Notes under the pieces: model-generated
Databases searched by the model: none
Seen by the model: the letters and a program-made list of their open reading frames with translations, nothing else
What the model was told of the DNA's origin: nothing
Assembly (NCBI RefSeq): GCF_006546655.1
Contig: NZ_VIAQ01000020.1
Location: 124,001 to 188,000 of the forward strand
Length of the DNA stretch: 64,000 nucleotides
Direction of reading: 5' to 3'
From: Methanolobus vulcani
GTDB taxonomy: Archaea > Halobacteriota > Methanosarcinia > Methanosarcinales > Methanosarcinaceae
Position numbers and translations under genes: made by a program
Shown: positions 13,507 through 17,263 of the stretch, piece by piece
Position numbering within the stretch: the first letter of the stretch is position 1
Layout: the number at the start of each line of letters is the position of its first letter

Positions 13507-14154
13507 CTAATGTAAATATTTCTTAAGTAGATCGTGATAATCTCTTCTGAACTCTTTGTTAAGCCATAGATTTTCCATTATTTCCATGTTTTTTAGATTA
13601 ATGTTATCCCAAACAACATTGTTTATTTCCATCTCTTCAGTAAAAGGTGTTAATGATTCATTCAATTTCTTTGGGAAATCTGTATTGTATATATTCTTTG
13701 AATCAAATTGCATTAAACTGTTTTTTCGGGATAGATAATCCCAATCAATCGTTTTTTGTTCAACGTCGACTGAAGCAAGAAGATTATTCATTAGCATTTT
13801 ATTTGAGTATTTGTTGCCTATAATTTTATACACATCACTTTCATGAACCTTTAACGTTTTTACAAGTTGCACTAAGCTATTTTCCATCTTTGCTATAGAT
13901 GTAAGATATGTTTCAGTTATTTTGTCTATTGCTACTTCTGTTTCGTTAGGTGGAATTATTGTTCCAACCAAAAATGCACCCGTTGTTAGGTATAAACTCA
14001 TTAGCAATTCCAAGTAAGCATCTTCAAAAGCTATTATATCTGGCTCAATTTCATCGGCAAAAGCAGGTTTTAACTTATGAGTATCGTCTAAGTCCATTAC
14101 ATATTTTAGAATGTATTTTAGATAACCAATATACTGAAACATTCCTGAAAACAT
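13507..14154 (-). CDS. Hypothetical protein
   Basis: 215-aa, AT-rich, largely helical protein with no family I recognise. One hydrophobic stretch (LELLMSLYLTTGAFLVGTII, about residues 48-67) could be a buried helix or a membrane segment. It lies on the same strand as the HEPN-type gene upstream, about 100 bases away, within an accessory island. ATG 14154 is the first of two candidate starts (MFSGMF). No function is proposed. Confidence 0.55.
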   Translation of the reverse strand: MFSGMFQYIGYLKYILKYVMDLDDTHKLKPAFADEIEPDIIAFEDAYLELLMSLYLTTGAFLVGTIIPPNETEVAIDKITETYLTSIAKMENSLVQLVKTLKVHESDVYKIIGNKYSNKMLMNNLLASVDVEQKTIDWDYLSRKNSLMQFDSKNIYNTDFPKKLNESLTPFTEEMEINNVVWDNINLKNMEIMENLWLNKEFRRDYHDLLKKYLH

Positions 14155-14256: not shown

Positions 14257-14967
14257 TTAGGTGTTTGTTCCACATTTATTAGCTTCTCTAATCTGCCTAG
14301 ATTTCATTTCTTTTGAAACTAATTGATGAACAAATTTTTCATATATCATATTTTTTGATTGATTCTGTTTTTCTACAACACGCAAAAACAGTCTTTCAAA
14401 ATCTCTCTCAAAAGTAGGAGTTGATACAGCAAGGTCATGTATCATTTGTGATAAATCCTTGAATATTAAGTATCTAAAGTTTATTTTCAGATAATTCTCA
14501 TCATTTACTTTAGATGTCAAAATATTATCATATTCAATTGAATCCCTATCAAAAGAATGTATCCATTGACCATGGGCTAATTTATTTCTTATATCTGCGG
14601 AATATTTTAAGTGGTCAGTAATAATATCCATCAATGCATTTAAACGAGCCTCATTTTCTGGGTCGGTACCAGTATTTGGAAAGCTTTTATCATATGCTTT
14701 TTTCAATGTTTGTTTCCATTTATTTTCAAGTGAATTTTTTGTTATATTTTTGATTTCAACATCACTAAATGCATTTGATTCATTGAGAAGTTTAATGATT
14801 CGCACTTCAGTCCAAGAATTAATCAAAAAAGCTAAAATACGTGTATAAATATCGACATTTTGTTGATCTTGCTTTCGAATAGATTGCTTTAATGAGACTT
14901 CTATTGAAGAGATTGCTGTTTCTATCATTTTAAGATTATCACAATGTTTGTCGTAATATGAACCCAA
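14257..14967 (-). CDS. HEPN-type candidate ribonuclease or toxin
   Basis: 236-aa helical protein. Residues near 128-136 read ADIRNKLAHGQW, fitting the R-x4-H motif of HEPN RNases in the usual context of a C-terminal helix. The rest is coiled and charged, ending in a basic tail. The probable start is TTG 14967 (GSYYDKHC) with ribosome-binding site GAGGTGG at 14974-14980. Its leader contains an 86-nt tRNA-like RNA only about 20 bases upstream and no separate TATA box is seen between them, so the two may be cotranscribed. HEPN proteins often cleave RNA, including tRNA anticodons, in defence and toxin systems; that role here is inference. Confidence 0.55.
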   Translation of the reverse strand: MGSYYDKHCDNLKMIETAISSIEVSLKQSIRKQDQQNVDIYTRILAFLINSWTEVRIIKLLNESNAFSDVEIKNITKNSLENKWKQTLKKAYDKSFPNTGTDPENEARLNALMDIITDHLKYSADIRNKLAHGQWIHSFDRDSIEYDNILTSKVNDENYLKINFRYLIFKDLSQMIHDLAVSTPTFERDFERLFLRVVEKQNQSKNMIYEKFVHQLVSKEMKSRQIREANKCGTNT

Positions 14968-14980
14968 AAAACCACCTCAA

Positions 14981-14989
14981 TAAAAAAGT
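14981..14989 (-). terminator. T-run after the tRNA-like RNA
   Basis: On the minus strand the tRNA-like sequence is followed directly by CACTTTTTTATT, a typical archaeal oligo-T termination signal. Partial readthrough would reach the HEPN-type gene. Confidence 0.45.
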
Positions 14990-15075
14990 GAATAGAAGAG
15001 GGAATCGAACCCTCAAAATCTCTCACTCGTGAGAGTGAGTGTGTTTTCCTTTACACCAGTCTAGGACTTTCTAAT
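14990..15075 (-). ncRNA. tRNA-like RNA with abnormal anticodon arm
   Basis: 86 nt. Acceptor arms ATTAGAA and TTCTATT pair at 6 of 7 positions. The D arm is TCCT...AGGA with ACTGG in the loop, and the T arm is perfect (GAGGG TTCGATT CCCTC). The 32 nt between D and T arms, the length expected of a class II tRNA, do not give a 5-bp/7-nt anticodon arm. Instead they form alternative long stems such as CTCTCAC/GTGAGAG, or CACTC/GAGTG around an 8-nt loop containing CTC. A TATA element and a T-run flank it, so it is probably transcribed. It may be a decayed or exotic tRNA (Glu-CUC-like) or a tRNA mimic. No CCA is encoded. Confidence 0.5.
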
Positions 15076-15090
15076 ATAATCTTATGTTAT

Positions 15091-15105
15091 TTAAATATTT
15101 TTAAA
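15091..15105 (-). promoter_or_regulatory. TATA box for the tRNA-like RNA
   Basis: On the minus strand the AT-rich element TAAAAATATTTAAATAA lies about 20-27 bases upstream of the 5' end of the tRNA-like RNA, the normal archaeal distance. Confidence 0.45.
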
Positions 15106-15275: not shown

Positions 15276-16052
15276 CTAATCTTTTTCCAAACCCGGGTGA
15301 TTCGGACTAATATCCATCACTTGCCCATTTAATTCCTGCGTCACCCTGTCCAGCATGTTATCAATCTCTTCCGTTTCCTCTTCATTGATCATAGAAGAAT
15401 AGATATTTTTGATACTCACAAGGCTGGCAGCCGACAGAGCCAGTAAAATGGATAGCACATCAACAGTAACTTCTTCGCGGTAATCAAAATCACCGATTGC
15501 TCTTTTTATACCAGGGTGAGCCGCATTGGAGATGAGTATATAAAAACCATCAACCTGTTTTTTCTTCTCTCCTGTGTATAATAATTGGCGTATTCTTGCA
15601 GGTCTGAGCCAGTGATGTTTGTTCTTTAGCTCTTTTTCTTCCGTCTCTGTGAGTGTGCCTAACTGCTGCTTGTAGAAAATATATGCTTCTCTGTCAGTCA
15701 GTTGAAGCAAATACATCTGGGTAATTCCTTCAAAAACGGTTCTTAAATTCAGGTAAGTAGAATTATTCAGACCAATACATGCTAGTTTGTAGGCTGCGAT
15801 CAAATTATGGTTGTTACGCTCAAATAGTACAGGTATAATGGATTTAGGATCATCGGGACGTTTACTGGTTCTTTTAACCTCATCACGAAATCCGGCATTC
15901 AGAACTGTTGTAAGATAGAATAACAATTCTATGGAATCTTGAAATATAGCCAGTTTGGCGGCGTGTTCGCTGAAGATGATATCTTTCCTGTAGGAAAAGA
16001 TAGATTCAATATCGTTATAGTCACGCCTATTTTTACCGGTGTGCATTGTCAT
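15276..16052 (-). CDS. Hypothetical HEPN/DUF5677-like helical protein
   Basis: 258-aa helical protein. The central segment NSTYLNLRTVFEGITQMYLL resembles the 'multiple R(S/T)xxE' helix of DUF5677-type proteins found in many accessory islands. A later ISNAAHPGIKRAIGDF gives a conserved-looking His. The C-terminal tail is acidic. It lies between the tRNA-like RNA and tnpB on the same strand. Role unknown; island location suggests defence or toxin function, but I see no diagnostic active site. Confidence 0.5.
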   Translation of the reverse strand: MTMHTGKNRRDYNDIESIFSYRKDIIFSEHAAKLAIFQDSIELLFYLTTVLNAGFRDEVKRTSKRPDDPKSIIPVLFERNNHNLIAAYKLACIGLNNSTYLNLRTVFEGITQMYLLQLTDREAYIFYKQQLGTLTETEEKELKNKHHWLRPARIRQLLYTGEKKKQVDGFYILISNAAHPGIKRAIGDFDYREEVTVDVLSILLALSAASLVSIKNIYSSMINEEETEEIDNMLDRVTQELNGQVMDISPNHPGLEKD

Positions 16053-16094: not shown

Positions 16095-16175
16095 TAGCTA
16101 AGAGTTATTTTAGAACCTGTTAGTGACTGCTCTCATGTCTAAAGAACGTGGGCTTCTACGGATTCGATACCGACA
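16095..16175 (-). mobile_element. Right end of the TnpB element and likely omega-RNA 3' part
   Basis: The end of tnpB and the bases after it read GAAGCCCACGTTC TTTA GACATGAGAGCAGTCAC on the minus strand. In related IS200/IS605-type elements this region is a strong subterminal hairpin and the 3' scaffold of the guide (omega) RNA. Here the arms CCCACGTTC and GACATGAGA pair imperfectly, suggesting end decay. The exact tip is uncertain. Flanking DNA beyond it would be the guide. Confidence 0.45.
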
Positions 16176-17263
16176 GATTGCAATCCCAATCTGAGAATGT
16201 TGATAGCGGCATTGTGGTCACGGTCTAAAACCAGACCACAGCTATTACATTCGTGTGTTCTATCTGCTAATGTTTTTTCAACTAACAGACCACACCTTGA
16301 ACACATCTTAGAAGTATTCGCAGGATTAACCAATGCAACTAAAGAACCAGCACTTTCAGCCTTGTATTTTGTTGCAGAGATTAACATATTCCATGCGGCA
16401 TCAGATATGCTTTTTGCGAGACAATGATTTTTAAGCATGTTCTTGATGTTTAAATCTTCAAAAGCTATGAAGGAATAATCATCTACTAACCGTTTGCTTA
16501 ATCGATGTATGAAATCATATCGCTTGTTTGCTATTCTTTCATGTACTCTTTGTACTACACGGATAGCTTTTTTGCGTTCAGGGGAACCCTTTGTGGCTTT
16601 GGATAATTTACGTTGAGCCTTTGCGAGTTCCTTTTCTTCCTTACGGAAAAATCGAGGGTTGTAAATAGCTGTTCCATCTGATAGGGTTGCGAAACTGGAT
16701 AAACCCATATCGATACCTACAACATGTTCCATATTTCTCTCAGGGATTTCTATATCTTCACATTCTGTTGTTAAGGAAACGTACCATTTTTTACATGCAG
16801 AACGTCTTACGATGATTCTTTTAATGTCACCTTCAACTTCTCGATGTACTTTTACACGGACATTCCCGATTTTAGAGAGATATAGAAAATTATCTTCGAG
16901 TTTAAAGCCCATCTGAGGATATGTGAAACTATCGTACCACCCCTTACCTTTGAAACGAGGGTATCCGGGTTTTTCTCCGTTCCTCACACGTCTGAAAAAG
17001 TGCTTGAATGCAAGGTCTACTCTTTCCTGTACTTCTTGAAGGGTTTGGGAAAACACTTCTTTATATTCAGGTTTCTCTTTTTTCCATTCAGGTAGTAGTT
17101 TATTGAGAGTATACTTTGAAAGTGTCTCGCCTCTTTCCTCATAAGCAGTTTTTCGTTCTGCTAATGTGCGATTATACACTTGTCTGCATAATTCCAAGCT
17201 ACGCTCCATCTGTTTTTGTTGTGGTTTAGTAGGATAGATACGAAACTTGTATGTTTTACGCAT
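16139..17263 (-). CDS. tnpB: TnpB-type RNA-guided nuclease of an IS200/IS605-like element
   Basis: 374-aa full-length TnpB. RuvC-I Asp is in VGIDMGLSSF (about residue 185), RuvC-II Glu in IAFEDLNIKNM (about 268), the zinc finger CSRCG...CNSCG (about 318-338) and RuvC-III Asp in LDRDHNAAINIL. All catalytic residues are present, so the protein is probably active. No tnpA lies beside it, so it is a solitary (IS1341-type) element that cannot move without a transposase in trans. TnpB cuts DNA at sites matching its omega RNA, which favours retention of the element. Confidence 0.9.
   Translation of the reverse strand: MRKTYKFRIYPTKPQQKQMERSLELCRQVYNRTLAERKTAYEERGETLSKYTLNKLLPEWKKEKPEYKEVFSQTLQEVQERVDLAFKHFFRRVRNGEKPGYPRFKGKGWYDSFTYPQMGFKLEDNFLYLSKIGNVRVKVHREVEGDIKRIIVRRSACKKWYVSLTTECEDIEIPERNMEHVVGIDMGLSSFATLSDGTAIYNPRFFRKEEKELAKAQRKLSKATKGSPERKKAIRVVQRVHERIANKRYDFIHRLSKRLVDDYSFIAFEDLNIKNMLKNHCLAKSISDAAWNMLISATKYKAESAGSLVALVNPANTSKMCSRCGLLVEKTLADRTHECNSCGLVLDRDHNAAINILRLGLQSVGIESVEAHVL

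Follow-up and report, generated by a model that had tools for sequence, protein, structure and literature searches.

The stretch of Methanolobus vulcani DNA analysed here (the window, 64,000 nucleotides) carries on its minus strand a gene for a HEPN protein of 236 amino acids with a TTG start (14257-14967) and, ahead of it, a tRNA-like RNA (14993-15063) that is present as a single copy in the M. vulcani genome. The gene was identified by its motif, a family match and a structure model, and the RNA by the Rfam tRNA model (24.6 bits) and comparison with relatives. The open reading frame begins 25 nt downstream of the RNA, close to the spacing of about 20 bases in the preliminary description, and is preceded by a Shine-Dalgarno-like GAGGTG (14973-14978, minus strand). 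A TATA box (15090-15097, minus strand) lies about 27 nt upstream of the first base of the RNA and is the only archaeal promoter-like signal that we saw ahead of the RNA and gene. A run of six T residues (14982-14987, minus strand) follows directly 3' of the RNA; standing between the RNA and the HEPN gene, it is a possible archaeal terminator or attenuator.

The RNA has a core of 71 nt rather than the 86 nt of a class II tRNA that had been proposed. All of its arms lie on the minus strand. A 5-bp acceptor stem, UAGAC/UUCUA (15063-15059 and 14997-14993), is joined by a UG linker to the D arm, GUGU-AAAGGAAA-ACAC (15056-15041), which has GG in its loop. That both of these arms are present had been recognised; their details were not right, and the pairings given here come from comparison with relatives. 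The T arm, GAGGG-UUCGAUU-CCCUC (15014-14998), is perfect, and the anticodon arm is replaced by a hairpin, CUCACUC-UCAC-GAGUGAG (15022-15039), with a 7-bp stem, a 4-nt loop and no 7-nt anticodon loop. In these two respects, as in the RNA's own TATA box and T-run and its place upstream of a HEPN gene, the preliminary description was accurate.

The Rfam tRNA model matches positions 14998-15058 with an E-value of about 0.01 for the genome, and its 24.6 bits fall below the curated cut-off of 29 bits. ARAGORN called no tRNA at the window RNA, and folding of the single sequence was only mildly unusual (z -1.8). From the window copy alone, a chance origin could not be excluded. It is excluded through sequence comparison, because two Methanosarcina MAGs, UBA8098 and UBA11020 (loci L033 and L034), whose HEPN proteins are 57-58% identical to that of the window, carry this RNA too, equally far from the gene. 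These are the only two other genomes with close homologues, making three of 186 in the order when the window is counted. Their RNAs score 29.9 and 31.9 bits, above the cut-off, and their central hairpins are CUCAC-AUAA-GUGAG and CUCAC-GUAA-GUGAG. The window stem has 2 bp more; the additional bases on its two sides are complementary, and pairing was thus kept despite the difference in length. Identity to the window copy is 80% for the RNA and 70% for the gene, and outside the interval from promoter to gene it is at background level. The TATA box (TTTAAATA/TATAAATA) is in the same place and the GAGGTG is invariant in all three archaeal loci, and both relatives also have the T-run. Weak profile matches of the HEPN protein in other archaea disappeared with a deeper profile.

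Several features of the surroundings were recorded. A tyrosine-recombinase-like open reading frame adjoins the HEPN gene of L033, as seen by inspection. In the window, a stand-alone IS605-type OrfB/TnpB gene (16139-17263, minus strand; Pfam OrfB_IS605, Cas12f1-like TNB) lies about 1.1 kb upstream of the RNA. The flanking open reading frames at 13507-14154 and 15276-16052 (both minus strand; 215 and 258 aa) have no significant match in Pfam, NCBIfam or PADLOC and do not recur next to the cassette elsewhere. A pyrrolysine tRNA with a CUA anticodon is encoded elsewhere in the genome (G000:C1:240463-240531, L077), and in-frame TAG codons of M. vulcani may for this reason be read through.

The HEPN family and its genomic range

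The window protein itself matched no family in Pfam, NCBIfam or PADLOC. Its active-site motif is R127-N128-xx-A131-H132-GQW (RNKLAHG in the window), and RNxxAHGQW, which meets the Rx4-6H criterion of the HEPN superfamily, is invariant in 17 of 17 family members. The 17 members tested all matched PHROG 12663 (phrog_12663; E down to 1e-68), a cluster of unknown function that contains every one of them and has neither an RNA nor a HEPN annotation. An AlphaFold model from 17 family members reached a pLDDT of 91 and replaced an earlier one made from three sequences (pLDDT 60). The top six structural matches reported by VIA-align were all HEPN proteins (7ae6, 8xeh, 8xdj, 6m6u, 5yep and 4nqf; Z 8.4-7.3 over 123-136 residues). 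For a protein made of helices such Z values are modest, and with Foldseek alone the model had no significant match; the same HEPN toxin family had ranked first with the earlier, poorer model. As modelled, the protein has a HEPN fold; RNase activity is inferred. Some single members matched unrelated models in Pfam, NCBIfam (one of them Cas13e, E 0.0025) and PADLOC; these matches were rejected as noise.

By tblastn, the protein has full-length homologues encoded on plasmids from three genera, Kovacikia (30% identity), Rhodococcus (26%) and Raoultella (26%). A profile of the homologues added 15 IMG/VR contigs, and the number of distinct viral or prophage homologues was still 15 after three profile-based scans. 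E. coli NH-21 has an intact HEPN copy (protein WP_338850341.1) with its RNA, 95% identical to contig L103, among Qin-prophage-type genes (DicB, YdfA, DicF). Every intact HEPN locus for which upstream sequence was available, 20 of 20 with the window included, carries a tRNA-like RNA just upstream. These loci range over Methanosarcina MAGs, cyanobacterial, Rhodococcus and Raoultella plasmids, viral and prophage contigs and the E. coli prophage; the homologues are 18-58% identical, and the set includes the near duplicates L100/L107, L103/L119 and L112/L115. The earlier proposal of a toxin-RNA pair, in which a tRNA mimic serves the HEPN protein as antitoxin, guide or substrate, is thereby supported, the role of the RNA (as antitoxin, guide or cis-regulator) and the RNase activity remaining inference. 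It would have been refuted had homologous loci shown an ordinary tRNA and a HEPN gene elsewhere; we looked for this outcome and found the anticodon arm reshaped in 20 of 20 loci, in archaea and several bacterial phyla.

The strength of the individual matches varies. Among the IMG/VR contigs with upstream sequence, 14 of 14 (13 distinct) have the RNA directly before the gene, and seven of these loci score 28-40 bits with the Rfam tRNA model; over all loci, about ten score 24.6-40 bits. In the three plasmid loci, the RNA upstream of the gene in L100 (2823-2912) scores 34.7 bits with that model, the one in L098 (2837-2906) was found with our RNA model R1 (31.7 bits, E 1e-6), and the one in L099 has a clear T arm and a 5-bp acceptor. 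A descriptor scan placed the RNA upstream of the HEPN gene in most loci, against four matches elsewhere (384 kb, both strands). Exact DNA patterns of the archaeal RNA had no match in the viral contigs, and the RNA sequence searched against phage and plasmid DNA gave short matches at the T-arm end or none. Apart from isolated pairs, the 21 loci have no neighbouring protein in common, so that the RNA alone remains as a candidate partner for the HEPN protein.

Two further observations concern the context of the homologues. The HEPN gene is matched in 298 of 5,426 E. coli genomes, nearly all of which have a 3' fragment only, and the intact cassette occurs in two; such a 3' fragment (L102:2930-3360) also occurs next to sitABCD in lambda-like phages, where the tRNA-like RNA is missing and the frame is disrupted. 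Mrr-type restriction endonuclease genes lie near two cassettes (L098:1716-2627 and L099:4805-6142) and an AbiGi-family gene near one, hinting at defence islands.

Promoters, separators and the gap before the gene

In 11 of 17 bacterial loci, the best promoter-like site has its -10 box 7-8 nt ahead of the RNA, although several of the individual sites are no better than shuffled sequences. The promoter of the Kovacikia locus reads TTGGCA-18-TATAAT. Taken with the archaeal TATA box, these positions imply that transcription would start at the 5' end of the RNA. A terminator-like hairpin separates the RNA from the HEPN gene in most bacterial loci, and the T-run does so in the archaea; in both, termination is inferred from sequence.

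The gap has a second property. In 14 of 17 bacterial loci a scan found the 3' strand of the RNA to be complementary over 10-20 nt to a segment before the gene (0 of 300 shuffles for most of them), and in L108 complementarity between the RNA 3' end and the gap was seen by eye, bringing the count to 15 of 17. The complementary segments often surround the terminator-like hairpin. Two exclusive folds are thereby permitted, a closed cloverleaf in the free RNA and, in a read-through mRNA, an acceptor strand captured by the hairpin. In most of the bacterial RNAs (L099-L119), the 3' strand of the acceptor is complementary to what is nearly a duplicate of its 5' strand, placed in the gap just before the HEPN start; this is possibly a built-in strand-exchange switch.

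Such an arrangement might mean that the RNA is a cis-acting leader only, a switch or attenuator of HEPN expression that does not bind the mature protein. It could work, for example, through competition between the acceptor stem and the downstream hairpin, or in response to enzymes that process or modify tRNAs, and the mutually exclusive folds with terminator-like inner hairpins (14 bacterial loci and L108) are what it would use. The complementarity, however, is absent from the archaeal loci, Kovacikia and L111, though all of these keep the tRNA-like fold. A toxin moreover requires some neutraliser, yet the loci have no conserved neighbouring protein, and the leader RNA of AbiF, a HEPN toxin system, acts both in cis and in trans (PMC12373285). 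We regard a leader that acts in cis alone as unlikely, but not so much so that it can be set aside.

Shape and covariation of the RNA

To judge the fold, we counted base pairs with the two strands of each stem matched as found and with partners swapped between loci. In 13 distinct acceptors, 62 of 65 positions pair, compared with 31.6 expected on swapping, and none of 20,000 swaps was as good. The T stems have 53 of 55 pairs (36.1 on swapping) and the D stems 32 of 32 (25.9 on swapping; 9 of 20,000). The stems were assigned by eye, which somewhat favours pairing; how large the effect is, and the descriptor scan, which was automatic, both speak against this as the explanation of the result. An alignment of all RNAs by MAFFT misplaces the variable arm, and the pair counts do not draw on that alignment. 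On this comparative evidence, the fold of the RNA is under selection.

The loci have the residues of the tRNA elbow, GG in the D loop and a UUCRANY T loop. The acceptor has 4-6 bp (about 5) instead of the 7 bp of a tRNA, no CCA is encoded, and the tail is usually A-rich; four RNAs (L099, L105, L106 and L111) fit the cloverleaf more poorly. Hairpins at the anticodon position include CCC-GAAA-GGG, CUGGC-UUCG-GUCAG, CUGAUC-UUU-GAUCAG, CUCC-UAU-GGAG and UCGCC-CCCAAA-GGCGA; others combine a stem of 7-11 bp with a larger loop. The central loops measure 3, 4, 6 or 10+ nt, and none of the members that could be assigned has the 7 nt of an anticodon loop. In both sequence and length this hairpin is the most variable part of the RNA.

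Variation of that kind would be expected of a specificity or sensor element, and Cas13 and similar HEPN effectors employ RNA cofactors. The RNA could accordingly be imagined as a sensor or guide by which the HEPN nuclease is activated or directed to its target, or as the native substrate, with its cleavage by enzymes of the host or a phage acting as the trigger. Its central part, however, is for the most part a closed hairpin that offers no single-stranded guide, and no spacer-like sequence was seen; we think a cofactor of either sort improbable. The location of the loci on mobile elements, the recombinase-like reading frame in L033 and the habit of many elements of integrating in tRNA genes would suit a degenerate tRNA gene or att site that hitch-hikes with a mobile HEPN gene. 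We give this very little credence, since the RNA is a single-copy sequence that always stands between the promoter and the HEPN start, and its stems covary across proteins only 18-58% identical with the anticodon arm always reshaped, whereas a pseudo-tRNA would lose its pairing. A functional tRNA of unusual type (for example a suppressor or mitochondrial-like one), which Rfam tRNA scores of 30-40 bits in several homologues might suggest, is the least credible reading, given the missing 7-nt loop, the short acceptor, the lack of an encoded CCA and a genome whose other tRNAs form an ordinary set, with two tRNA-Cys and tRNA-Pyl among them.

Considering the known requirements of aminoacyl-tRNA synthetases, EF-Tu and the CCA-adding enzyme, we infer that these RNAs, although they retain the elbow of a tRNA, are incapable of decoding and probably not charged. 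Model R1 also matches ordinary tRNA-Cys and other tRNAs at 24-41 bits; since the RNA resembles tRNA-Cys only a little more closely than it does other tRNAs, an origin from tRNA-Cys is not claimed.

The RNA as a putative antitoxin

An antitoxin role is proposed because the arrangement matches that of AbiF and RCd22. In C. difficile AbiF, transcription from a shared promoter yields the leader RNA RCd22 and mostly terminates ahead of the gene; RCd22 binds the HEPN toxin and so neutralises it (PMC12373285; review PMC12737573). Like the present loci, AbiF (Abi_2/AbiD-F; RCd22, AbiFr, RF03085) has a single HEPN toxin gene, a structured leader ncRNA, one promoter before the RNA, a terminator between the two and a prophage or plasmid setting. 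Unlike AbiF, the present protein matches neither Abi_2 (PF07751, no match in 17 family members) nor any other Pfam family, and its RNA is a tRNA-like cloverleaf rather than the 36-37 nt abiF motif (RF03085), which cmscan at a relaxed E-value did not report in the window region or the homologous loci.

Two other classes of toxin-antitoxin system are comparable in part. Type III systems (ToxIN, CptIN, TenpIN) share a predicted RNase toxin, an RNA directly upstream, a terminator between and the absence of a protein antitoxin, but the present toxin has a HEPN rather than a ToxN/CptN/TenpN fold (no family member has a Pfam match to a type III toxin family), and its RNA is a single tRNA-like unit rather than tandem repeats. 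The type VII HEPN/MNT systems (HepT/MntA) share the toxin fold, and HepT/MntA-type toxins are the best structural matches; the 21 loci, in contrast, have an RNA and no adjacent MNT nucleotidyltransferase or other conserved protein. By analogy, and with direct neutralisation of the toxin by the RNA as an inference, the system would work like a type III toxin-antitoxin, yet it does not meet the defining features of the named families. No description of a HEPN protein with a tRNA-like RNA was found in the literature searched, whose coverage omits many subscription papers and preprints, so that an unseen description is possible.

In the light of these analogies the RNA is most likely an antitoxin. 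It would be transcribed from its own promoter ahead of the gene, mostly ending before the gene, and its D and T arms would form an elbow, with an acceptor stem that is short and, where a tRNA has its anticodon loop, a hairpin that is either tight or elongated. Its tRNA shape leads to the hypothesis that the toxin recognises tRNAs and that the RNA is a decoy, keeping the elbow without the cleavable loop. As such a decoy it would bind and silence the HEPN dimer and, having no anticodon loop, would itself be uncleavable, while toxin mRNA would be made by read-through only. Loss or displacement of the RNA, through phage attack or loss of the element, would free the HEPN protein to cleave RNA, perhaps tRNAs, and growth would stop. 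Toxicity, RNase activity, expression of the RNA, its binding to the protein, inhibition, tRNA as the target and the role in defence are all inferred.

The antitoxin reading builds on a conserved pair of RNA and gene, a covarying fold, a HEPN fold with an invariant active site, the lack of a conserved protein partner, and the positions of promoter and separator, all of which are observed. The plasmid and prophage setting and the two cassettes near Mrr-type restriction or AbiGi genes also favour it. Against it, a leader RNA could equally be a cis-regulator, and the pairing of RNA and gap in 15 of 17 bacterial loci is as expected of a switch; furthermore, some members fit the cloverleaf less well, the stems were assigned by eye, and the archaeal family is rare (3 of 186). 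On balance we judge it probable, by no means certain, that the locus is a type III-like toxin-antitoxin or abortive-infection cassette of two parts, in which a HEPN RNase toxin is silenced by a tRNA-decoy RNA. The broader claim, to which we give even chances, is that the loci represent a class of toxin-antitoxin or phage-defence system that is widespread, in archaea as in several bacterial phyla, and so far undescribed, with a tRNA mimic without an anticodon loop as antitoxin and uncleavable decoy of the tRNAs cut by the HEPN protein.

RNA-neutralised HEPN toxins (AbiF) are reportedly ancestors of Cas13. The copy in the E. coli prophage is directly testable in the laboratory, and the tRNA shape of the partner RNA suggests what the target of the toxin may be. 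A second HEPN family, apparently independent and paired with an RNA of tRNA shape, would demonstrate that a tRNA can itself be converted into an antitoxin or regulator.
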